Assembly: GCA_003045895.1 (NCBI GenBank)
Contig: PZPC01000020.1
Location: 1-64,000 of the forward strand
Direction: 5' to 3'
DNA from: Bacteroidota bacterium
Lineage (GTDB): Bacteria > Bacteroidota > Bacteroidia > Chitinophagales > Saprospiraceae
Length of the DNA: 64,000 bases
The first letter of the stretch is position 1; the number at the start of each line of letters is the position of its first letter. The notes under the pieces are model-generated. The model made no database searches and was not told the origin of the DNA. It saw nothing but the letters and a program-made list of their open reading frames with translations. Of this stretch, positions 27,290 to 38,024 are shown piece after piece. The translations under genes and the position numbers were made by a program.

Positions 27290-27955
27290 ATGCAAAGCTA
27301 CCTGGCTGCTACCTACTTCTTCGACTTCGAACACGCTCCCATTCAGGCGATCATCGCCGAATTTCAAACCAGCCAGCTGACGGAACAGGAAAAGGCCGTG
27401 CAACTTTACACTAAGATTCGCGACGGCTGGCGCTACGACCCCTATACTTTAAGTACGCATCCGGAGCCCTACCGGGCCAGCAACATTGCCCAGCGTACCA
27501 GCGCCCATTGTATCTACAAAGCGATATTGCTGATTGCCGGGCTGCGGGCGCTCGGCATTCCGGCCCGGTTGCACCTGGCCAAAGTCAAGAACCACCTGGC
27601 GGTTGAGCAGCTGACGGAAAAGCTGGGCACCAATGAACTGAGCCCCCACGCCATGGTCGACATCTTGCTCAATGGCAAATGGTTAAAAGTCTCTCCGGCC
27701 TTCAATAGCGAGCTCTGCCAATACTGTGGGGTAGCCCCCCTGGATTTCGACGGGGAGCACGATTCCATCTTTCAGCAGTTCACGACCGATGGCCTGGCCT
27801 TTATGGAATACCTGGAAGATTACGGCCATTTTGCCGATGTCCCGCTCGATTTCATCACCAAAAACTGGGAAGACAACTACGGCGACATGGGGAGCCGCAT
27901 ACCGGTAGGCGAACAGGAGTTTCGCTTAGTTTCACCCCCACCTTCCCATCTCTAG
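27290..27955 (+). CDS. Transglutaminase-like cysteine protein
   Basis: A 221-aa protein with the transglutaminase/papain-like core. The likely nucleophile is Cys74 in SAHCIYKAILLIAGLRALGI and the His is His120 in LSPHAMVDILLNGKW; the third position (usually Asp in WxxxDP) reads KVSPAFN, so the classical Asp is absent. There is no signal peptide. Proteins of this kind act as peptidases or remain without known substrate. Its stop shares the tetramer CTAG with the stop of the convergent thiolase-crotonase gene. Confidence 0.75.
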   Translation: MQSYLAATYFFDFEHAPIQAIIAEFQTSQLTEQEKAVQLYTKIRDGWRYDPYTLSTHPEPYRASNIAQRTSAHCIYKAILLIAGLRALGIPARLHLAKVKNHLAVEQLTEKLGTNELSPHAMVDILLNGKWLKVSPAFNSELCQYCGVAPLDFDGEHDSIFQQFTTDGLAFMEYLEDYGHFADVPLDFITKNWEDNYGDMGSRIPVGEQEFRLVSPPPSHL

Positions 27956-30324
27956 TCCTGCTGTCGCGTCCATTTGGGTGGACGTTTCTCCGCAAAGGCG
28001 CGGGCTCCTTCAAAGAAGTCATCACTGTTCAGTAAGTTGTCGAAAATAGTATGAGACAAGGTTACCGCTTCGTCGGTACTGGCCAGATGGCTCGTAGCAT
28101 TCAACAGTTCCAGCGTACTCCTGATCGCTACCGGCGAAGCCTGGGCAATTAGCTGTGCCAGTGCGTCGGCTTTGTCCAGGAGTTGGTCGGCAGGCACCGC
28201 GTAGTTGATCAGCCCCCGTGCCAGTGCTTGCTCGCAGGTAATGGGCTGCCCGGTGAGCAACATTTCCATGGCCGCCTTACGGCCGATCTGCCGGGTTAGT
28301 CGCTGCACTCCTCCTGCACCGGCAAAGAGGCCTATTTTTACTTCGGGTAAACCGAAAACGGCGTGGTCTGCCGCCACGATAATATCCGTTGCCATGGCAA
28401 TTTCCAAACCACCACCCAGCGCCGATCCATTGACCGCAGCAATAATGGGCTTGACTCTATTGACCCTGCTGGTAATACCCGCAAACCCCGTTTGGGGCAC
28501 CCAAATCGGATTGCCCGCAGCCATGTACTTGAGGTCGTTGCCCGCCGAAAAGGAGTCGCTGCCCGCACCCGTAAGAATAGCTACCCGCAGGGAATCGTCT
28601 GCTTCGTAGGCATTAAATACGCCTTCCAGTTCTTCGTTAGCCGGCGGGCTCAGCGCATTGCGCACCTCGGGGCGGTTGATCGTGACGGTCAGGATCCAGC
28701 CACTCCGTTGAACGGTGCAAAAATTGTATTTTTCTTTAAACGTACGGACAGGAACGGGGCGGTAACGCGCCAGGTGATCCGGCGAAAAGGCGAATCGATT
28801 GCCTTTGGGATCGGCTTCCACGTAGATCGTTGCCCCCAGTTGGTCGCCTTGCGCTACGGCTTGCGCGGTTTCGGTATCGCTCATCGGCGTCGTCGCGTAA
28901 AAACGCTGGTTGTTGTGGGTCAACCGACCGGCGATGATGACCTTCACCGGAAAGCCCTGAAAATAATGGGCCGTGTAGGTTTCTAGAATGGCCTCCCCCT
29001 GCGGTTGTGGATCGATCCCGAATGGGCTGTCGCGGTCAACGATGGCCTGCCAGGGTTGGCTGTCTTGTGGTTGCCATTCCTGCGGTGGCGGCGTTGTCGA
29101 ATAGATTCCCGCTGCGTGTTTGGACATCCATCCCCCATTGGCGTAAACCAAGCCAAAGCTGCCGCGATCCAGGCGCAACGTTTCCACCAGGGCAGCAATG
29201 CCGTGCATGGTGTAGTTATTACCTGGTCCGCCAAAGAAAGGCAGTCCCCCGGTTTGGGTTAGCGGCCGTGGATCATCTTCCGGAATGTCCAGAATCGTCC
29301 GGGCTTCGCTCACGACAATGGGAAAGCAGCTGTAAATATCGAAGTGGCGAATGTCCTTTGCCGTCTTTTCGGCGTTGGCCAAAGCGCCCAACAACGACTG
29401 TTGCATAGCCGTGGAATGCCCCAACTGTGGGCGTTCGAGCAGCACGCGGTCGCTGACGTTGGCGTAGCCGTGCAGGTACACCCAGTTGCCGGGAGGAATA
29501 CCCCATTCTGTCGCTTTGCCCACCGTCGTCATTAAAACCGCCGCTCCCTGGTTGACCCGGTCTTTGGCCATGAGCAGTTTGGTGTAGGGTGCCACGATTA
29601 AGGGGTTCTTCGCCGCAGGTGTAGCCAGCGTTTCGGCCGTATAAACCTGTTGATCAACAGCGTAAGGATTACCAGCAGCTACTTCACTGAAAGGACTCAG
29701 ACAGCGTCCCATGGCAGCCGTATAAGTAGCCAGATCCTGTTGTAAGTCTGCCCGCCGGGCATTTTCCATCAACCCGTAATACTGCATGGGCAAGACCAAT
29801 TGGTGGATAAATTCGGTTTGGGTGATCAGCCGGCCAGCGCTGATTCCGCGGTCTTCCAATTGGCCAGCTACCGTTTCGCTCCAATTGAGCGTGACCCCGG
29901 CCTTGGTCGCGGCTTTGGTGTTGGCAATAGCCTCCCCACCGGTTAATAAAACCAGCTCACAGGTTCCCTGGGCTAGCTTTTCAGCAAATTCAGCAACCAG
30001 CTTTTGGGGGGAGTCGCCACCCACACAATCGTAGATGGCGCGTTCCGGCTGGGCACCAATCCGCAGGCCAACCGAACGGGGGAAATTATTGGTACTTCCG
30101 AATGGAGATTGCCAGGTCGGCGACGAATCGGCAAAAGTGCGGACGGCCGCGATGGTATCGATCTGGCTGGCCAGGTGCATACCGCCGGCGTCTTCCAACG
30201 CCCGCCGGGCTGCTGCTGCTGCCAAATCTACTGCCGAGGGGGCAGCTTCCAGATCGTCAGGAACCCCAGCAGACGCCTGACCGACGCCTATAATTATGGG
30301 GGTATGGGGTGCTATTGCTGGCAT
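27952..30324 (-). CDS. Thiolase-like protein fused to enoyl-CoA hydratase
   Basis: A 790-aa two-part protein. Residues 1-430 resemble the thiolase-like (TLP1, SCP2-type) group: YDCVGGDSPQKLV at the nucleophile region and GGLPFFGGPGNNYTMHGIA where classical thiolases have GHP, so the usual His is lost. Residues 430-525 are the extra C-terminal domain of that group. From about 530 a crotonase follows with oxyanion motif FSAGNDLKYM and both catalytic Glu positions, in GGGLEIAMATD and FGLPEVKIG. Probably acts on acyl-CoAs in fatty-acid or side-chain degradation; whether the thiolase half is catalytic is doubtful. 31 bp after the TesB gene, so likely one transcript. Confidence 0.85.
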   Translation of the reverse strand: MPAIAPHTPIIIGVGQASAGVPDDLEAAPSAVDLAAAAARRALEDAGGMHLASQIDTIAAVRTFADSSPTWQSPFGSTNNFPRSVGLRIGAQPERAIYDCVGGDSPQKLVAEFAEKLAQGTCELVLLTGGEAIANTKAATKAGVTLNWSETVAGQLEDRGISAGRLITQTEFIHQLVLPMQYYGLMENARRADLQQDLATYTAAMGRCLSPFSEVAAGNPYAVDQQVYTAETLATPAAKNPLIVAPYTKLLMAKDRVNQGAAVLMTTVGKATEWGIPPGNWVYLHGYANVSDRVLLERPQLGHSTAMQQSLLGALANAEKTAKDIRHFDIYSCFPIVVSEARTILDIPEDDPRPLTQTGGLPFFGGPGNNYTMHGIAALVETLRLDRGSFGLVYANGGWMSKHAAGIYSTTPPPQEWQPQDSQPWQAIVDRDSPFGIDPQPQGEAILETYTAHYFQGFPVKVIIAGRLTHNNQRFYATTPMSDTETAQAVAQGDQLGATIYVEADPKGNRFAFSPDHLARYRPVPVRTFKEKYNFCTVQRSGWILTVTINRPEVRNALSPPANEELEGVFNAYEADDSLRVAILTGAGSDSFSAGNDLKYMAAGNPIWVPQTGFAGITSRVNRVKPIIAAVNGSALGGGLEIAMATDIIVAADHAVFGLPEVKIGLFAGAGGVQRLTRQIGRKAAMEMLLTGQPITCEQALARGLINYAVPADQLLDKADALAQLIAQASPVAIRSTLELLNATSHLASTDEAVTLSHTIFDNLLNSDDFFEGARAFAEKRPPKWTRQQD

Positions 30325-30355
30325 CTCTTTCGGAATTACTTTTTACAAAATACGT

Positions 30356-31225
30356 CTACCCTTTCTTACGGACCTCACGGATCAACCCTTCCTGAACGAC
30401 AGATGCGACCAATTTGCCTTCCTGGTTGAAAATATTACCCCGGGTGAAGCCCCGGGAATTGGAAGCACTCGGGCTATCCAGCGCGTACAACAACCAGTCG
30501 TCAATGCGGAAATCGCGGTGAAACCACATGGCGTGGTCCAGGCTGGCCAGAAACAAGGTAGAATAATCAGCAGTTTGCAAGTGAGGCAGCACGGCGGTTC
30601 CCAACAGGTTGTAATCGGAGGCGTAAGCCAGAATCTGTTGCTGCATAGGCAAATCCAGGGTAACTTCCTCCTTGGCTTTTATCCACACGTGCCGGTAAGG
30701 TTGGGTGACATTGGGATTGGCAGGGTCGAACTTTTCCACGGGCCGAAACTCCAGCGCATTGGGGTGAATGATCGTCAGCCGTCGGTACAGATCGGGATGA
30801 TCGGCCTCCAAACTCTTCGCTTGTTCATAGTCGGGCAGCAACACCTCGGGTGGCAGCACATTGGGCATGGTAATCTGGTGATCGAAGCCATCCTGCCGAA
30901 CCTGAAAAGAAGCCGCCAGGATAAAGATTACCTGGTCGTTTTGCCGGGCGACCACGCGCCGGGTGGTAAAACTTCCGCCATCGCGGATGATATCGACATC
31001 GTAAATCACCGGAAGGTCAATATCTCCGGTAAGGATGAAGTACCCATGTAGCGAATGGGCAAAGCGGTCGGCCGGAACGGTTTGATAGGCAGCGTGCAGC
31101 GCCTGTCCGAGCGCCTGCCCCCCAAAGACCCGGCGCCACGGCGTTTGGTAATTCATGCCCTGGTAGCGGCCTTCGCCAATCTGTTCCAAGGTCAGCAACT
31201 CGATTAATTCCTTGACTGTTTTCAT
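30356..31225 (-). CDS. tesB: Acyl-CoA thioesterase II
   Basis: Hydrolyses acyl-CoA to free acid and CoA. 289 aa with the two hot-dog domains of TesB: the N-terminal one with RVFGGQALGQALHAAYQTV and SLHGYFILTGD, the C-terminal one with YASDYNLLGTAVLP and SLDHAMWFHRDFRIDDWLLY, which holds the catalytic Asp/Thr/Gln region. Upstream of the thiolase-crotonase gene in the same direction, suggesting joint use in acyl-CoA turnover. Confidence 0.93.
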   Translation of the reverse strand: MKTVKELIELLTLEQIGEGRYQGMNYQTPWRRVFGGQALGQALHAAYQTVPADRFAHSLHGYFILTGDIDLPVIYDVDIIRDGGSFTTRRVVARQNDQVIFILAASFQVRQDGFDHQITMPNVLPPEVLLPDYEQAKSLEADHPDLYRRLTIIHPNALEFRPVEKFDPANPNVTQPYRHVWIKAKEEVTLDLPMQQQILAYASDYNLLGTAVLPHLQTADYSTLFLASLDHAMWFHRDFRIDDWLLYALDSPSASNSRGFTRGNIFNQEGKLVASVVQEGLIREVRKKG

Positions 31226-31317: not shown

Positions 31318-31470
31318 ACCTCCCACCTCCGATTTCCCACCTCCCTCCTCCGATTTCCGACTTCACACCTCCGACTTCCCACTTCGAGCACCTCCGACTT
31401 CCCACCTCCAACTTCCCACTTCGAGCACCTCCGACTTCCCACCTCCGACTTCCCACTTCGAGCACCTCCC
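31318..31470. repeat. Pyrimidine-rich tract with 37-bp repeats
   Basis: Nearly pure C/T on the plus strand with only scattered A and G. Within it CTTCGAGCACCTCC begins at 31382, 31419 and 31456, a 37-bp period; smaller CGACTTCCCACCTC-like units are nested inside. It fills most of the 323-bp gap between tesB and the first phasin-like gene and stops 2 bp before the regulatory direct repeat. No unique spacers, so not CRISPR. Such tracts can form triplexes or vary in length. Confidence 0.85.
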
Positions 31471-31472
31471 CC

Positions 31473-31507
31473 TGTAACTCATTTGTAACTACCCGTTCCT
31501 AAATTTG
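31473..31507 (+). promoter_or_regulatory. Direct-repeat operator plus -7 element (SARP-type site)
   Basis: TGTAACT at 31473-31479 and again at 31484-31490 (11-bp period, 4-bp spacer CATT), then 9 bp, then TAAATTTG at 31500-31507. The same layout occurs at 33540-33574. Heptamers repeated at one helical turn just upstream of the promoter core are what SARP activators bind, and a SARP/BTAD gene lies between the two sites. Confidence 0.75.
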
Positions 31508-31548
31508 TCCTATCAACATTAAATAATTTATCTCAAAAATATTTTACC

Positions 31549-32010
31549 ATGGCTAACAAGACTGCAAAGCAAACGACTGAGAAAGCAGAACTGAACCAAA
31601 AACTGGAACAGCTCAAGACCACCGCCAAGACCCTGAACAGCCAACTTCGCGAAGTTGCTACGGAAGTAGTAGACACCGTTGTGGAAAACAGCAAGCAGAT
31701 GGCAGAAGAAACAACTACCCGGGTAAAGACATTGGTAGAGAAAGCATCTGTTGAAAACAGCATCAAGACCGTCAAGACTACTGCGAAAAGCATCAATGAC
31801 TACACGTTGGAAGTAGCAGAAGATATCGTAGCCGGTACCCTGGAAGCTGGAAAAAGCTGGCAAGGTGTGGGTGAAAAAGCCCTCAAAGGCACCCTGAAGC
31901 TGGCCAACAAGCAGCAGGAAATCCTGTTCACGGCACTGGAAGAAGTAAAAGGTCAGGTGGTAGACGGCGCCAAGCGCGTACGCACGCTGGTGACCGGCAA
32001 CAACAACTAA
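31549..32010 (+). CDS. Phasin-like helical protein
   Basis: A 153-aa protein with no signal peptide, membrane segment or cysteine, almost entirely amphipathic helix rich in Lys, Thr, Glu and Val with repeated patterns such as TTAKTLNSQLREVATEVV and VKTTAKSINDYTLEVAEDI. Composition and length resemble phasins, which coat polyhydroxyalkanoate granules, but no diagnostic motif settles it; a stress or apolipoprotein-like coat protein is an alternative. Promoter with a SARP-type direct repeat upstream, strong terminator downstream, so it is transcribed alone. Confidence 0.55.
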   Translation: MANKTAKQTTEKAELNQKLEQLKTTAKTLNSQLREVATEVVDTVVENSKQMAEETTTRVKTLVEKASVENSIKTVKTTAKSINDYTLEVAEDIVAGTLEAGKSWQGVGEKALKGTLKLANKQQEILFTALEEVKGQVVDGAKRVRTLVTGNNN

Positions 32011-32057
32011 GCAGCGTGGCCTGCTGGTCATTTTTTTGACCCACCATATACCAAGAG

Positions 32058-32086
32058 AGGCATTTCCGCAAGGAGATGCCTTTTTT
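32058..32086 (+). terminator. Rho-independent terminator
   Basis: Arms AGGCATTTCC and GGAGATGCCT around a GCAA tetraloop, followed by six T. Ends the first phasin-like gene. Confidence 0.85.
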
Positions 32087-32101
32087 GGTAATACTTAGTA
32101 A

Positions 32102-32132
32102 TTTGACGAAAATAACTAATCCCCTATTTTTG
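32102..32132 (+). promoter_or_regulatory. Consensus Bacteroidota promoter
   Basis: TTTG at 32102-32105, exactly 19 bp, TATTTTTG at 32125-32132: a perfect match to the Bacteroidota primary sigma consensus (TTTG-N19-TAnnTTTG). It lacks the TGTAACT repeats of its neighbours, so this operon, which carries the regulator, looks constitutive. Confidence 0.8.
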
Positions 32133-32172
32133 TCCCGTCTCTTATTATCTTTAGGGATATAAAAACAGATGC

Positions 32173-32697
32173 ATGGCACACCACAAAACCGAAACGGCTT
32201 CTTTTCTCTTGCGCTTCACCCAGAAGGTTTTCCAGGACGATGAAGGTGAACACGAGGTACAATGGCGCGGTAGCGTAAGTCACGTGCAGGGAGGAGATGA
32301 ACAACGCTTTTCCAACTTCGACGAAGCCACCCTGTTCATTCAGAATAAGCTAACAGAACTGACCCTTCAGGCCATCGAAGACAAGTCGCCCGAAGAGCAA
32401 AAAGGCATCCTCGCCAAAAGCTTTAACCTTTGGAAGAAGGTGGCTTTAGATGGCCCCAAACTGGTGCGGGAGACCATCAAGGATCCCATGAAGCAGGTCG
32501 CACAAATCCAACACCAAATTTCCCAGGTCGGCGATTCCATCGGCAAGCGAATCGAAGACAAAATAGGCCAGGTCGTGGAAATCGACGACTGGCGCGGCGC
32601 CTCCAAAACGGATCTTAAGCACCTGATGGATGCCATAGAAAAAATGTCGGATCAAATAGCGACCTTGAACAACAAGGTAGATAAGCTTAAAAAATAA
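32173..32697 (+). CDS. Phasin-related protein, cotranscribed with the SARP regulator
   Basis: 174 aa, no signal peptide. The N-terminal 55 residues are beta-like (FLLRFTQKVFQDDEGEHEVQ, WRGSVSHVQGGDEQRF); the rest is amphipathic helix ending in a heptad-rich stretch MSDQIATLNNKVDKLKK. The helical part recalls phasins and granule-associated proteins, the N-terminal part does not. It has its own consensus promoter and is followed after 13 bp by the SARP-type regulator gene, so the two are very likely one operon. Function is inferred only from composition and neighbours. Confidence 0.5.
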   Translation: MAHHKTETASFLLRFTQKVFQDDEGEHEVQWRGSVSHVQGGDEQRFSNFDEATLFIQNKLTELTLQAIEDKSPEEQKGILAKSFNLWKKVALDGPKLVRETIKDPMKQVAQIQHQISQVGDSIGKRIEDKIGQVVEIDDWRGASKTDLKHLMDAIEKMSDQIATLNNKVDKLKK

Positions 32698-32710
32698 CCG
32701 GATCACGAAC

Positions 32711-33526
32711 ATGACCGTATCCGCCAACCACCTTGCCGACCTCTTGGCACAACGTGAACACCGGGCGCTCCAGGTACAAACCCTGGGCGGGTTTCGCGTA
32801 TGGTGCGACGGCGTAGAATTATCGGATAAAGACTGGGGGCGGGACAAGACCATCCAATTGTTACAGTTTCTGGTAACCGCCAGCGACCGCCGGGCCCTCC
32901 ACAAAGAGCAGATTATCGACCGCCTTTGGGGCGAAGAAGGCGATAGCAAAGCTGGTGATCAAAATTTCAAAGTTGCGCTCCACGGCATCAACAAAGCCCT
33001 GGAACCTAACCGCAAAAACCGGGCAGAATCGCGTTTCATCCACCGGCAGGGGCTCAGCTACCAGTTGAACCTCGATGAGACCTGGATCGATGCCCGCGAA
33101 CTGGAACAGTTGGTGGCCCTCGGCAACCAGGCACTCTCTACGAATCCCGACCTGGCGCAGCAAGCCTACCAGGCAGCGATTGCCCTATACGGTGGTACTT
33201 ATCTCCCTAATCGCCTGTTCGAGGACTGGTCTTCCACCGAACGGGAACGCCTGCAGGTACTGGCCCTGGGCGTGATGATCAATCTGGGCGAGATGTTGCT
33301 GGAAACCAATCCGCTCGAAAGTATCCGCCTGGCCCAGCAAGCCCTCCTCATCGATCACACCTGGGAAGATGCCTACCGCATCCAAATGAAAGCCTATCTC
33401 CAAAAAGGCAACCGCCCCATGGCCATCAAAACCTTTCAGACCTGTGAACAGGTCCTCGACGAAGAATTCGGCATCCCACCCCTCCCGGAAACCCGCAACC
33501 TCTGGAAAGCCATCATGAATGTATGA
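32711..33526 (+). CDS. SARP-like transcriptional regulator (OmpR-type HTH plus BTAD)
   Basis: A 271-aa DNA-binding protein. Residues 20-120 form an OmpR-type winged helix in the variant seen in SARPs and BTAD proteins (QTLGGFRVWCDGVELSD, KEQIIDRLWGEEGD, FKVALHGINKALEP); residues 124-265 form the helical bacterial transcriptional activation domain with TPR-like repeats (AQQAYQAAIALYGGTYLP, AYRIQMKAYLQKGNRPMAI). It lacks the ATPase and sensor domains of larger family members. It lies between two promoters that share TGTAACT repeats with 11-bp period, the expected kind of target, so it probably activates the phasin-like genes on both sides. Confidence 0.85.
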   Translation: MTVSANHLADLLAQREHRALQVQTLGGFRVWCDGVELSDKDWGRDKTIQLLQFLVTASDRRALHKEQIIDRLWGEEGDSKAGDQNFKVALHGINKALEPNRKNRAESRFIHRQGLSYQLNLDETWIDARELEQLVALGNQALSTNPDLAQQAYQAAIALYGGTYLPNRLFEDWSSTERERLQVLALGVMINLGEMLLETNPLESIRLAQQALLIDHTWEDAYRIQMKAYLQKGNRPMAIKTFQTCEQVLDEEFGIPPLPETRNLWKAIMNV

Positions 33527-33539
33527 TTACCGACCTACC

Positions 33540-33574
33540 TGTAACTCAGTTGTAACTGTCCCCGCTTATCTTTG
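33540..33574 (+). promoter_or_regulatory. Direct-repeat operator plus -7 element (SARP-type site)
   Basis: TGTAACT at 33540-33546 and 33551-33557 (11-bp period, spacer CAGT), 9 bp, then TATCTTTG at 33567-33574. Spacing to the promoter core is identical to that at 31473-31507. It starts 13 bp after the regulator gene and drives the HhH phasin-like gene. Confidence 0.75.
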
Positions 33575-33599: not shown

Positions 33600-34328
33600 A
33601 TGGTCAAGAAAATAGATTCCACAGACAAGGTTCAAACGATCATCAAAACCGTCGCAACTCAATCAAAAAAAGTCAATAAAGTAGCCGTCGATAAGTCTTA
33701 CGACTTGTTGGATCGCTTTTTTAGTACCGCCGAAAAAGCACAGGGTGTTTTTGCTAAAACCTTGAAAAAAGGTGTACAGCTATTAGGCGTGGGCCAGGAT
33801 CGCCTGCTGAATAAACTGGAATTCCTGAAAGACCAGTACGAGAAGGAAGAATTGACCCTCACTGATTTCCTACCCTTCAAGGCCCCCGAAGTGGCAAAGG
33901 AGTCGCCTGCCGAAGCGTTAGATCAAACCATTGCTAAAGCTAAAAAAGCAGCAACAGCAGCGGCCAAACAAGTTGCCACCAAGAAAAAAGCAACCCCCAA
34001 AAAATCAAAAACAAGCGGTACAACAGCTGCACCTAAGGCTGCTGCGCCTGAGGCTACTGCCCCTAAGGCTACTGCGCCTAAAAAAGTGGCCGCCAAAGCA
34101 ACCACCACGAAGAAGGTCAAAGACAACCTGAAAACAATCAACGGGATCGGCCCCAAGATGGAATCCTTGCTGAACGCAGCAGGTATCACCACCTTTGTCG
34201 AATTGGCCAATGCCAGTCAGGAAAGCCTGGCTGCCATACTGGAAGCCGCCAGCCCCCGCTACAATTTATTCGACACATCTACCTGGAATGCACAGGCGCT
34301 GGAAGCAATAGCAAAGGCCAGCAAATAG
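33600..34328 (+). CDS. Phasin-like protein with Lys/Ala/Pro tail and helix-hairpin-helix
   Basis: 242 aa in three parts: an amphipathic helical part (1-95, phasin-like), a low-complexity Lys/Ala/Pro/Thr stretch (about 112-175) like histone H1 or the tail of PhaF, and a helix-hairpin-helix unit (about 177-215) with INGIGPKMESLL, a motif that binds DNA backbone without sequence specificity. The design suggests a tether between a granule surface and the nucleoid, as PhaF does in pseudomonads; that is inference. A SARP-type operator and -7 element sit just upstream and a strong terminator follows. Confidence 0.6.
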   Translation: MVKKIDSTDKVQTIIKTVATQSKKVNKVAVDKSYDLLDRFFSTAEKAQGVFAKTLKKGVQLLGVGQDRLLNKLEFLKDQYEKEELTLTDFLPFKAPEVAKESPAEALDQTIAKAKKAATAAAKQVATKKKATPKKSKTSGTTAAPKAAAPEATAPKATAPKKVAAKATTTKKVKDNLKTINGIGPKMESLLNAAGITTFVELANASQESLAAILEAASPRYNLFDTSTWNAQALEAIAKASK

Positions 34329-34375
34329 ACGTATTCCGTTCGCTGGATGCGCCATACGCCCCAAAAAAACAATCG

Positions 34376-34416
34376 TCCCGAATTTTGGAACCATCCAAAG
34401 TTCGGGATTTTTTTTT
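34376..34416 (+). terminator. Strong rho-independent terminator
   Basis: 14-bp stem TCCCGAATTTTGGA / TCCAAAGTTCGGGA (one G-T pair), ACCA loop, nine T. Ends the HhH phasin-like gene. Confidence 0.92.
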
Positions 34417-34655: not shown

Positions 34656-37600
34656 ATGGAACCAATTGCCCCTTACCAGGTCAAAAACAAAATACGCATT
34701 CTCACGGCAGGATCGCTCTTCGATGGGCATGACGCCGCTATCAATATCATGCGCCGCATTATCCAGAAATCGGGCGCCGAAGTCATTCACCTGGGCCACA
34801 ATCGCCCCGTCCACGAGATCGTAGCTGCTGCTATTCAGGAAGATGTGCAAGGTATTGCCATCACTTCTTACCAGGGTGGCCACAACGAATTTTTCAAATA
34901 CATCTACGACCTGCTTAAAGAGAAAGGTGCGGGTCACATCAAAATATTCGGTGGCGGCGGTGGCACCATCCTACCCAGTGAAATCGCCGATCTGCATGCT
35001 TACGGCATCACCCGCATCTATTCCCCCGACGACGGCAGGGCAATGGGCCTCCAGGGGATGATCAACCACTTGCTGGAAATCTGCGACTTCCCCCTCGGCG
35101 GACACCTGAATGGTGTGCTCAAGGAAGTCCCCCAAAAGAACCCCGTAGCCATCGCCCGCAGCATTACCGCCGCAGAAAACTTTCCCGAAGCCAACGCCAG
35201 TTGGCTCCCCGACCTAAAAGCGCAAGCCAAAGCCAGTAAAACCCCCGTGCTGGGCATTACGGGTACTGGCGGCGCCGGCAAATCGAGTCTGGTAGACGAA
35301 CTCGTCCTGCGTTTCCTCGCCAAATACCCAACCAAAACCCTGGGGATCATTTCCGTAGACCCCTCCAAAAGAAAAACGGGCGGTGCCCTGCTCGGCGATC
35401 GCATCCGCATGAATGCCATTGCCAATGACCGGGTATTCATGCGTTCGCTCGCTACCCGCCAGTACAACCTGGCCCTGTCCAAAGATATTGACAGTGCCAT
35501 TTCTATCTTAAAATACGCGGGGTTCGATCTGATTATCCTGGAGACCTCGGGCATCGGCCAGTCTGACAGCGAGATCGTGGACCACGCCGACCTTTCGGTG
35601 TACGTCATGACGCCCGAATTCGGGGCCGCCTCCCAGCTGGAGAAGATCGACATGCTGGATTTTGCAGACATGGTCGTGCTGAACAAATTCGACAAGCGGG
35701 GCGCCCTCGATGCCCTCCGTTCGGTGCAGAAACAATACCAGCGCAACAAAGACTTGTGGGACCAGCCCGTTGAAGAAATGCCCGTCTACGGTTCGATTGC
35801 TTCCCAGTTCAATGATCCTGGGGTCAACACCTTTTTCAATGCCCTGACCAGGCGCCTGTTTCCCGACGAAACCAGCGCCGACCTGGACGAAGGTGAAAGC
35901 GAAAAACAGTACATTATTCCTCCGGCACGGGTGCGCTATCTTTCGGAGATCACGGAAACCATCCACCGCTACGACCGGGATGTCGCAGCACAAAGTGAGA
36001 TTGCCCGCAAGCTCTTTGGTTTACACAAAACCATCGGCCACCTGCAAGCAGCGCCACAAGACCAAAAACTGGCCGACACACTGGCCGTACTCGAGCAAAC
36101 CAAAGTTGACCTAGAGCAGAAACTGAGCGGAGAGAACAAACAAATTCTCGACACCTGGGCAGCCAAAAAAGCGGCTTACCAGGGCGAGCACTTCGTCTAC
36201 CAAGTTCGCGACCGGGAATTCAAGGTGGAAAACTACACCACCTCTTTGTCGCAGAACAAAATCCCCAAGGTGGCCCTGCCCCGCTTCCAGGACTGGGGCG
36301 AGATCCTGCAGTGGAACAAGCAGGAAAACGTTCCCGGAGCGTTCCCTTTTACGGCCGGCGTCTTCCCGTTCAAGCGCAAAGGGGAAGATCCTACCCGCAT
36401 GTTTGCTGGCGAAGGTGGCCCCGAGCGCACCAACAAGCGCTTCCACTACCTGTCGAAAAGCATGCCCGCCAAGCGGCTTTCGACGGCTTTCGATTCCGTC
36501 ACCCTGTATGGCAACGACCCCGACCTTCGGCCCGATATTTACGGGAAGGTTGGCAATTCCGGGGTGAATGTCAGTTCCCTGAACGATGCCAAAAAACTGT
36601 ATTCCGGCTTCGACCTTTGTGACCCCCTGACCTCCGTTTCCATGACCATTAACGGGCCAGCGGCAACGATCTGTGCTTTCTTTATGAATGCGGCTATCGA
36701 CCAGCAGTGCGAGAAATATATCCGGGAACACCAGTTGGAACATCTCGTCGAAGCGCAACTTAAAACCCGTTATGACGACCGCAACCTGCCACGCCCCACC
36801 TACCACGGCGAACTACCCGAAGGCAACGATGGGCTGGGGCTCCTCCTGCTGGGATTAACGGGTGATCAGGTACTGGACGAAACAACCTATAATCAACTAA
36901 AAAGCAAAGCTTTACACGCGGTAAGAGGAACCGTCCAGGCCGACATCCTCAAAGAAGACCAGGCCCAGAATACCTGCATCTTCTCCACCGAGTTTTCGCT
37001 GCGCCTGATGGGTGACCTGCAGCAATACTTTATTGACCACGCCGTGCAGAATTTCTATTCCGTGTCCATCTCAGGTTACCACATTGCGGAGGCCGGAGCC
37101 AACCCCATTTCGCAGCTGGCCTTCACGCTGTCCAATGGATTTACCTTTGTGGAATACTACCTGTCGCGCGGCATGACCATTGACGATTTTGCGCCCAATC
37201 TGTCGTTTTTCTTTTCCAATGGTTTGGATCCGGAATACGCCGTCATTGGCCGGGTGGCCCGTCGGATTTGGGCGAAAGCCATGAAATACAAGTACGAGGC
37301 CAACGAGCGGGCACAAAAGCTCAAGTACCACATCCAAACGTCGGGGCGTTCGCTTCACGCCCAGGAAGTGGATTTCAACGACATCCGTACCACCCTGCAA
37401 GCACTGTACGCTATCTACGACAATTGCAATTCCCTGCACACCAACGCTTATGACGAGGCCATTACGACCCCTACGGAGGAAAGTGTGCGCCGGGCCGTAG
37501 CTATCCAAATGATTATCAACCATGAACTGGGGCTGGCCAAGAACGAAAACCCCCTCCAGGGCGCATTTATTATTGAAGAATTAACAGATTTGGTGGAAGA

Positions 37601-38024
37601 AGCGGTGCTCCTGGAATTTGACCGGATCACCGAACGGGGTGGCGTACTCGGCGCTATGGAGACCATGTACCAACGGGGAAAAATCCAAGAGGAAAGCCTT
37701 TATTACGAAACCCTCAAGCATACCGGCGAATTCCCGATCATTGGTGTCAACACCTTTTTGTCGGCCGAGGGTTCGCCGACCATTATCCCGAAGGAAGTAA
37801 TACGTGCCACGGAAGAAGAAAAACAATTACAGATCAAAAATCTGACGCTCCTACATCAGGTTCACCAGGGGGCTATAGCCGAGCAATTGGTTCGTTTGCA
37901 AGAAAGCGCGTTGCAAAACCAAAATGTCTTTGCGCAACTGATGGAATGTACCAAGTTCTGCTCGCTCGGGCAAATCACCGACGCCTTGTTTCAGGTCGGA
38001 GGACAATACCGGCGAAGTATGTAA
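34656..38024 (+). CDS. icmF: Fused isobutyryl-CoA mutase with GTPase chaperone (IcmF)
   Basis: An adenosylcobalamin enzyme interconverting isobutyryl-CoA and n-butyryl-CoA, fused to its G-protein chaperone, 1122 aa. Order: B12-binding domain (1-140) with [20 protein letters not shown] containing the cobalt-ligating His, GTPase domain (about 195-420) with P-loop GTGGAGKSS at 203-211 and NKFDKRG, linker, and the acyl-CoA-binding mutase barrel (about 560 on). The ATG at 34656 begins the typical N terminus; the 103 in-frame codons upstream run through a terminator and are non-coding. The family is known to link branched-chain and straight-chain acyl-CoA pools, which fits the acyl-CoA genes nearby. 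Confidence 0.93.

Follow-up and report, generated by a model that had tools for sequence, protein, structure and literature searches.

What does a regulator of SARP type control in a member of the Bacteroidota? The question is raised by a 64,000-nucleotide stretch from a Bacteroidota bacterium of the Saprospiraceae (assembly GCA_003045895.1, contig PZPC01000020.1, positions 1 to 64,000; the window), in which the gene for such a protein lies between two promoters carrying the direct repeat TGTAACT-N4-TGTAACT 9 bp before a TAnnTTTG element (the -7 box). SARPs are known from actinomycetes, mostly in antibiotic control, and their operators are direct repeats of 11- or 22-bp period in which some 8 bp separate the 3' repeat from the -10 element. 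The reading reached here, with a probability of about three in four, is that the protein is a small SARP-type activator, that the repeats are its operators, and that the two genes behind them, T1 and T2, encode coat proteins of lipid droplets. The analysis shows the layout of the locus, the predicted fold, the specificity of the motif, the joint inheritance of regulator, operator, and targets, and their association with WS/DGAT genes. Within this reading we infer the binding itself, activation rather than repression, the droplet location, and the role of a co-transcribed partner, CC. Judged from sequence, repeat sites and a SARP-type protein very probably switch on fat-droplet coat genes across many Bacteroidota.

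Two Repeat Promoters around the Regulator Gene

Operator 1 (TGTAACT-CATT-TGTAACT, an 11-bp direct repeat) occupies positions 31473-31490 with the -7 box TAAATTTG at 31500-31507, and operator 2 (TGTAACT-CAGT-TGTAACT) occupies 33540-33557 with the -7 box TATCTTTG at 33567-33574, each box lying 9 bp 3' of its operator and all features being on the + strand. Direct reading and a motif scan thus place the complete elements (repeat pair-N9-TAnnTTTG) at 31473-31507 and 33540-33574, confirming the two promoters that an earlier note on this DNA had described. The first stands before T2 (31549-32010, +; 153 amino acids), encoding a phasin-like helical protein, and the second before T1 (33600-34328, +; 242 amino acids), with a phasin-like module, a Lys/Ala-rich linker, and a helix-hairpin-helix (HHH) C terminus. 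Between them CC (32173-32697, +; 174 amino acids) and the regulator gene (32711-33526, +; 271 amino acids) form one operon, 32173-33526. As the same note had it, the promoter of this operon in the window is free of the repeats; it is a plain Bacteroidota-type promoter at 32102-32132 (+), read directly as TTTG (32102-32105)-N19-TATTTTTG (32125-32132), and within 300 bp upstream of the operon the best heptamer pair has at least five mismatches. Just 5' of operator 1, at 31320-31470, a degenerate tandem array of many near-identical short runs of CCTCCGACTTCCCAC type is seen by eye.

The element is rare in the source genome (5,573,894 bases in 161 contigs). A genome scan for TGTAACT-N4-TGTAACT-N9-TAnnTTTG, the check that had been proposed, returned exactly two matches even with three mismatches allowed, both at this locus, against 0 for the control, and at 0-1 mismatch the two locus sites are also the sole genome-wide matches to the heptamer pair. 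At two mismatches the pair has 8 genome matches versus 16 for the backwards control, and the other matches therefore look like noise; in the 64-kb window the pair with up to three mismatches occurs four times versus 2.8 expected, and just the two exact ones stand out.

SARP Architecture of the Regulator

The regulator (P0001) is by sequence and predicted fold a small SARP in its architecture, a winged helix-turn-helix (HTH) followed by a BTAD domain, in agreement with the OmpR-HTH plus BTAD protein first read between the promoters. The Pfam BTAD match scores 69.1 bits (E 7e-19; cut-off 22.1) and a weak Trans_reg_C match scores 20.5 bits, below the 26.2 cut-off. A PDB search with the single sequence (phmmer) returned only AfsR, with residues 14-269 aligned (E 1e-5). 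The AlphaFold model, built from 49 sequences, has a pLDDT of 93.5, and in its comparison with the PDB AfsR and EmbR fill the top four rows (239-246 residues, Z 18.5-19.0), and Z falls to 12.9 in the row below. Profile searches of the PDB (A1/A5) ranked designed TPR proteins first. The HMMER alignment is gapped exactly at the AfsR base contacts T88 and R92, and no residue-level claim is made. A second, distant SARP-like protein in the source genome (G000:C89:5575-6240; L023) has 27% identity and lies in a 421-amino acid frame.

The Repeat Pair Follows the Regulator between Genomes

Two sets of genomes were compared, the larger a sample of the order, together with named loci that are the best 80 of 101 relatives from a GTDB genome scan and whose titles are those of Bacteroidota (Saprospiraceae, Flavobacteriaceae, Cytophagia/Spirosomataceae, Lacihabitans, and others). 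In the first set, composed of the source genome (G000) and 59 relatives, close orthologs with 48-61% identity to P0001 occur in 9 of the 60 genomes, the source included, and the exact heptamer pair is present in 7 of these 9 versus 0 of the 51 others. Close reading of the nine finds the repeat in front of T1, which is often part of a T1-T2 operon. The target promoter adjoins the regulator gene in four (G000, G020, G022, and G035), lies ∼5, 17, and 48 kb from it in G018, G017, and G019, respectively, and is on another contig in G033 and G037. One mismatch is present in the pair of G037 and two in the pair nearest the -7 box of G022, and G017, G033, and G022 have three or four heptamers in a tandem run. 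The gap between repeat and -7 box is 8 bp instead of 9 in G019 (L056) and G366 (L198), which belong to one genus. With one mismatch allowed, the 60 genomes hold more matches to the backwards control than to the pattern, and one-mismatch matches away from T1/T2 are therefore meaningless.

The second set comprises 396 genomes, with up to six regulator candidates scored per genome at E 1e-20. A close ortholog is found in 20 (all E <1e-107; G017, G020, and G022 lie outside these 20), and three further genomes reach the threshold just through a distant protein in a 431-444-amino acid frame. Of the 29 genomes with the exact pair, 16 belong to the 20 with the regulator and 13 to the 376 without (Fisher p 2e-17), a symmetric comparison with the same search in both groups; the backwards control pattern is found in 2 regulator genomes and in 30 of the others. 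A repeat with 0-1 mismatch lies directly upstream of a T1 open reading frame (ORF) in all 20 regulator genomes, the four that lack the exact pair (G037, G207, G329, and G265) carrying a one-mismatch version there, and a -7 box follows at 8 or 9 bp in 19 (8 perfect, 11 with one mismatch). The combination of repeat, T1, and -7 box is found in 19 of 20 versus 2 of 376 genomes (p 3e-29), an asymmetric comparison in which the regulator genomes were allowed one mismatch near T1 and the other genomes were searched for the exact pair. At the places examined (one of two in G209), 11 of the 13 non-regulator genomes with the exact pair lack a target-like ORF as well as a -7 box 8 or 9 bp away. The distribution of the exact pair is not that of a motif occurring at random or upstream of genes never linked to this regulator, which the earlier note had named as a refutation, and in the orthologous promoters, whose comparison had also been advised, element and spacing are kept. 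In G265 the regulator copy (G265:C97:5304-6095) is reported with two internal stop codons; T1 and the one-mismatch operator are still there.

Another factor could bind the repeats, the regulator gene being merely a neighbor. Two genomes fit such a case, G366 (96% complete) and G154 (75% complete), which have the motif, the -7 box, T1, and WS/DGAT and no regulator at E 1e-20, although the regulator may have been lost or left unassembled in them. A TetR-like gene (TetR_C_23 in one example) near the system would offer a candidate, but it is present in just 24 of the 80 named loci, whereas the regulator co-occurs with the exact pair also when the two are unlinked, and 11-bp direct repeats are what the SARP fold binds in the AfsR complex (PMC10936776). 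Such an unlinked factor is considered very unlikely.

Fixed Period and Spacing in the Named Loci

In the 80 loci the repeats have the periods of SARP operators, 101 pairs with at most one mismatch being found at period 11 and 10 at period 22 compared with 0-2 at any of the remaining periods between 7 and 23. In 87 of the 101 period-11 sites a -7 box with at most one mismatch lies at 9 bp (the distance is 8 bp in G019 and G366 of the genome set), none lies at 7, 8, or 10 bp, and the other gaps from 3 to 19 bp account for 0-2 sites each. The reversed-sequence control gave three sites, none with a -7 box. A chance origin of the element was set aside on the genome scans, the controls, and these counts of period and spacing. 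The consensus is TGYAACTCANYTGYAACT-N9-TAnnTTTG; because heptamers and -7 box served to select the sites, just the spacer and flank columns are independent evidence, and over 99 sites the spacer starts with C at base 1 in 85% and A at base 2 in 91%. The upstream flank and N9 have little information in common (0.02-0.52 bits/position) and the bases 3' of the -7 box are partly shared, up to 0.89 bits. The earlier statement that the flanks differ outside the heptamers and core thus applies to the upstream flank and N9 but not to the 4-bp spacer, which is conserved. Hitch-hiking by synteny was set aside on this low content and on sites that follow unlinked targets; a scatter over unlinked targets is the pattern of a real regulon and not of a single stretch inherited in common.

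The sites with a -7 box, 97 in number, are all on the strand of the regulator gene and stand before T1 (54), T2 (26), CC (5), or an ORF unlabelled by the queries (12); by eye at least eight of these 12 precede small phasin-like or T1-like ORFs and two precede none. A site lies within 250 bp of 50 of the 53 T1 ORFs. Sites with a -7 box are present in 57 of the 80 loci, and of the remaining 23, 21 have no T1/T2 in the DNA examined, L094 ends at a contig edge, and L139 has repeats without a -7 box.

Promoter Register and Probable Activation

With the Bacteroidota -7 box placed at -12 to -5 (PMC6847099, PMC9723704), the two 11-bp units run from -39 to -29 and from -28 to -18. The units of the AfsR complex are described at -40 to -30 and -29 to -19, in which the SARP dimer engages sigma region 4 together with the box, which lies over the -35 element (PMC10936776), and the operator register is therefore within 1 bp of the AfsR box. 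At TTTG-to--7 spacings of 16-21 bp the conserved letters at the sites give no TTTG, although the -33 motif is reported as weak in Flavobacterium generally (PMC6847099). The register shared with AfsR and the missing TTTG make activation the natural reading, and co-occurrence and register together suggest that the regulator binds the repeats and activates transcription.

The same protein on the same operator might instead be a repressor, its dimer blocking the polymerase site at T1/T2 until a signal arrives, perhaps via CC. The repeats cover the -33 region, and the regulator of a droplet gene in Rhodococcus, MLDSR, may act both ways (PMC5504291). A repressor would, however, have no need of the near-fixed 9-bp spacing, and the position of the repeats where SARP activators sit (PMC10936776) also argues for activation. 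The lack of a conserved TTTG points the same way but counts for less, the -33 motif being weak in Flavobacterium generally (PMC6847099). Repression is considered improbable.

Target Proteins and a Probable Role in Neutral-lipid Storage

A helical module of ∼90 residues is common to T1 and T2 (hhalign probability 99.5); in T1 it is joined by the Lys/Ala-rich linker and, in most cases, by an HHH domain (HHH_5 in 18 of 25 T1 proteins). Relatives of T2 lie behind repeat promoters or form the second gene of a target operon. Pfam Apolipoprotein matches 10 of 25 T1 and 3 of 29 T2 proteins (best 3e-9), a hint of lipid-binding helices only. The phasin families point toward granules of polyhydroxyalkanoate (PHA), with 6 of the 25 T1 proteins matching Pfam Phasin (PF05597) at E ≤0.01 (1.7e-6 at best), 20 matching NCBIfam PhasinPhaH, and 2 matching PHA_granule_1. 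The PhasinPhaH match in the T1 protein of the window (P0004) covers the linker/HHH part, as with unrelated models of similar tail, and neither P0004 nor the T2 protein of the window (P0002) reaches the Pfam/NCBIfam phasin cut-offs. For PHA synthase, PF07167 has no match in the nine regulator genomes of the first 60 (four other genomes matched), TIGR01836 has none over cut-off in 23 regulator genomes (three positive-control genomes were detected), and the source genome has no match to either. The PHA-granule reading was put aside on the lack of a synthase over cut-off in the regulator genomes tested; the targets are probably not PHA phasins, and that T1/T2 coat such granules is regarded as extremely unlikely.

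The synthase that does accompany the regulator is WS/DGAT (PF03007), present in 49 of the 396 genomes and divided as 20 of 20 with the regulator versus 29 of 376 others (p 1e-20). A WS/DGAT-like ORF is the commonest neighbor in the named loci, found in 58 of the 80 as counted by the HHxxxDG motif and an N-terminal pattern; a cluster of 60 loci had merged WS/DGAT with the alpha/beta hydrolase through a fused ORF in L152. Other neighbors are a HAD/acyltransferase fusion (27 loci), GpsA (26), an AarF-type protein (24, a cluster that also took in a uridine-kinase-like ORF), the TetR-like protein, and an alpha/beta hydrolase. In Pfam one WS/DGAT example has WS_DGAT_cat, WS_DGAT_C, and SCP2, single examples of the fusion, GpsA, and AarF-type neighbors match GPAT_C with HAD and acyltransferase, glycerol-3-phosphate dehydrogenase, and ABC1, respectively, and the hydrolase example has weak hydrolase matches. 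A place in an antibiotic biosynthesis cluster, typical of SARPs without strictly defining them, is not seen, the neighbors of the relatives being WS/DGAT, acyltransferase, and GpsA genes. Genera reported to have such SCP-2-bearing WS/DGAT genes include Polaribacter, Muricauda, and Ulvibacter, where an acyltransferase gene belongs to the gene context; the same paper calls wax-ester/triacylglycerol (TAG) accumulation in Bacteroidota unexplored (PMC10351704), and its main text does not contain the terms "SARP" or "transcriptional regulator."

The lipid-droplet reading is preferred over the PHA one because WS/DGAT is in 20 of 20 regulator genomes and PHA synthase was not found over cut-off, and on gene content the best reading is that T1/T2 form a dedicated coat-protein regulon for neutral-lipid droplets. 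The earlier term "phasin-like targets" thus holds for helical phasin-like proteins but not for PHA granules, the targets going with wax-ester/TAG synthase genes. The regulator and operator could work as proposed while T1/T2 serve something else, such as the nucleoid or polyphosphate granules, and the tail of T1 speaks for this with its Lys/Ala-rich linker, its frequent HHH_5 domain, and matches to the histone H1-like HC2 model in 2 of 25 T1 proteins. Set against the constant presence of WS/DGAT in the regulator genomes and the acyltransferase and GpsA neighbors, such another role is rather unlikely, although less so than repression.

Partner CC and Possible Autoregulation

CC lies directly upstream of the regulator gene in 80 of 80 named loci. 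Its model, with a β N-terminal part followed by helices, is of low confidence (mean pLDDT 65; best PDB row Z 5.0) and allows no fold conclusion. The absence of repeats from the regulator operon holds in the window but not in 7 of the 80 loci (L079, L083, L084, L086, L088, L090, and L151), where repeats with imperfect -7 boxes are present upstream of CC. On the other side of these sites WS/DGAT is divergent in six of the seven (all but L151), and the sites could therefore also touch WS/DGAT. A tentative extension, possible at best, is that Bacteroidota have their own droplet control, with CC sensing the droplet as it grows, or coating it, and either restraining or releasing the regulator, which then makes more coat, while T1 ties droplets to the nucleoid; if true, a SARP would serve as a gauge of a storage organelle, reached independently of MLDS/MLDSR of Rhodococcus.

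Proposed Working and Points against It

In the proposed mechanism two regulator protomers would bind side by side on the 11-bp direct repeats TGYAACTCANY-TGYAACT, the repeats would stand in for the -33 element, and the regulator would recruit RNA polymerase to TAnnTTTG 9 bp downstream, switching on the phasin-like genes T1 and T2. Their products would be structural coat proteins of neutral-lipid (TAG/wax ester) droplets, and the Lys/Ala-rich, HHH-tipped tail of T1 could hold the droplet to DNA. The co-transcribed CC may modulate the regulator, most simply linking its activity to lipid storage.

Several observations weigh against this reading. The repeats overlap the polymerase site, leaving room for repression, G076 has repeats before T1 and no -7 box, and G366 and G154 have the element without the regulator as described above. 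Counted across the 396 genomes, the bare pair and the backwards control have 36 places each; given their unequal spread, frequency is therefore uninformative and the distribution over genomes carries the signal. The named loci are in part drawn from the same genomes, at least seven being contigs of the genome set (L081, L083, L090, L092, L128, L135, and L153) and further loci having identical sites, so that the counts of the two sets are not independent. The weak family matches of T2 are mixed, the best for P0002 being WXG100, under cut-off. In 8 of the 23 regulator genomes TIGR01836 does give partial matches, all weak and under its cut-off (E 1.5e-6 to 9e-4), 29 genomes carry WS/DGAT without the regulator, and the WS/DGAT of the source genome is on another contig (G000:C22) with no operator element nearby; the case for droplet coating is drawn from gene company. 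The SARP interpretation is nevertheless supported by strong comparative evidence, and the activator-operator system proposed in the earlier note gains support from fold, co-inheritance of regulator and motif, and kept geometry.

Other Features of the Locus

Hairpin terminators lie 3' of T2 (32050-32089, +; -28.8 kcal/mol, z -9.7, with 0 of 200 shuffles as stable) and 3' of T1 (34375-34416, +; a stem-loop of 15 pairs at 34375-34408, then a T run), and because they close T2 and T1 three transcription units are likely (T2, CC-regulator, and T1). The flanking genes at 27952-31225 and 34656-38024, viewed by eye, presumably belong to acyl-CoA metabolism (a thiolase/enoyl-CoA hydratase fusion, a thioesterase, and an IcmF-kind mutase).

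Comparison with Known Systems

Among the papers that an open-access library gave for SARP/BTAD together with Bacteroidetes/Bacteroidota none had a fitting title, and none was found there joining Bacteroidetes, wax ester synthase, and lipid droplet, PMC10351704 alone being relevant by title among the wider matches listed. The regulon of the source genome, two promoters, is defined at base level, and candidate droplet coat proteins are named for a phylum whose neutral-lipid storage is hardly studied. The system is found in loci titled Saprospiraceae, Flavobacteriaceae, and Cytophagia and is therefore open to testing in cultured strains (Polaribacter, Croceivirga); loci L122 of Polaribacter filamentus and L100 of Croceivirga thetidis have it.

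PHA phasins of the PhaF/PhaP type have a similar helical module, whereas here no PHA synthase is found over cut-off and the family scores are below cut-off; the Lys/Ala-rich tail of T1 may be like that of PhaF. In MLDS of Rhodococcus jostii, a protein of lipid droplets, a histone-H1-like (PAKKA) segment binds DNA, and a dedicated regulator is encoded next to it (PMC5504291). By that description it is alike in the proposed working, a droplet coat tied to DNA with its own regulator, and not in descent; MLDSR has a predicted XRE-type HTH, binds a palindrome, and lies in one operon with its target (PMC5504291), in contrast with the SARP-type protein, direct repeats, and separate promoters here. 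EmbR of Mycobacterium shares the HTH plus BTAD fold (Z 18.9) but has an FHA domain that the 271-amino acid regulator lacks, and its targets differ.

The closest likeness is with the small SARPs of Streptomyces and the SARP domain of AfsR with its afs box, in which the winged HTH plus BTAD extends over nearly the whole protein and 11-bp direct repeats, two or more in number, lie over the -35 region with a register within 1 bp of that found here. Unlike the Streptomyces SARPs, the present system is in Bacteroidota and has the heptamer TGYAACT, a conserved CANY spacer, the Bacteroidota -7 box, the constant partner CC, and phasin-like targets associated with lipid storage in place of antibiotic clusters. 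SARP architecture and geometry are thus known; what differs is the phylum, along with the operator, the class of promoter, the partner, and the process that the targets serve, the SARP fold, repeat period, and promoter register being joined here to the Bacteroidota -7 box.

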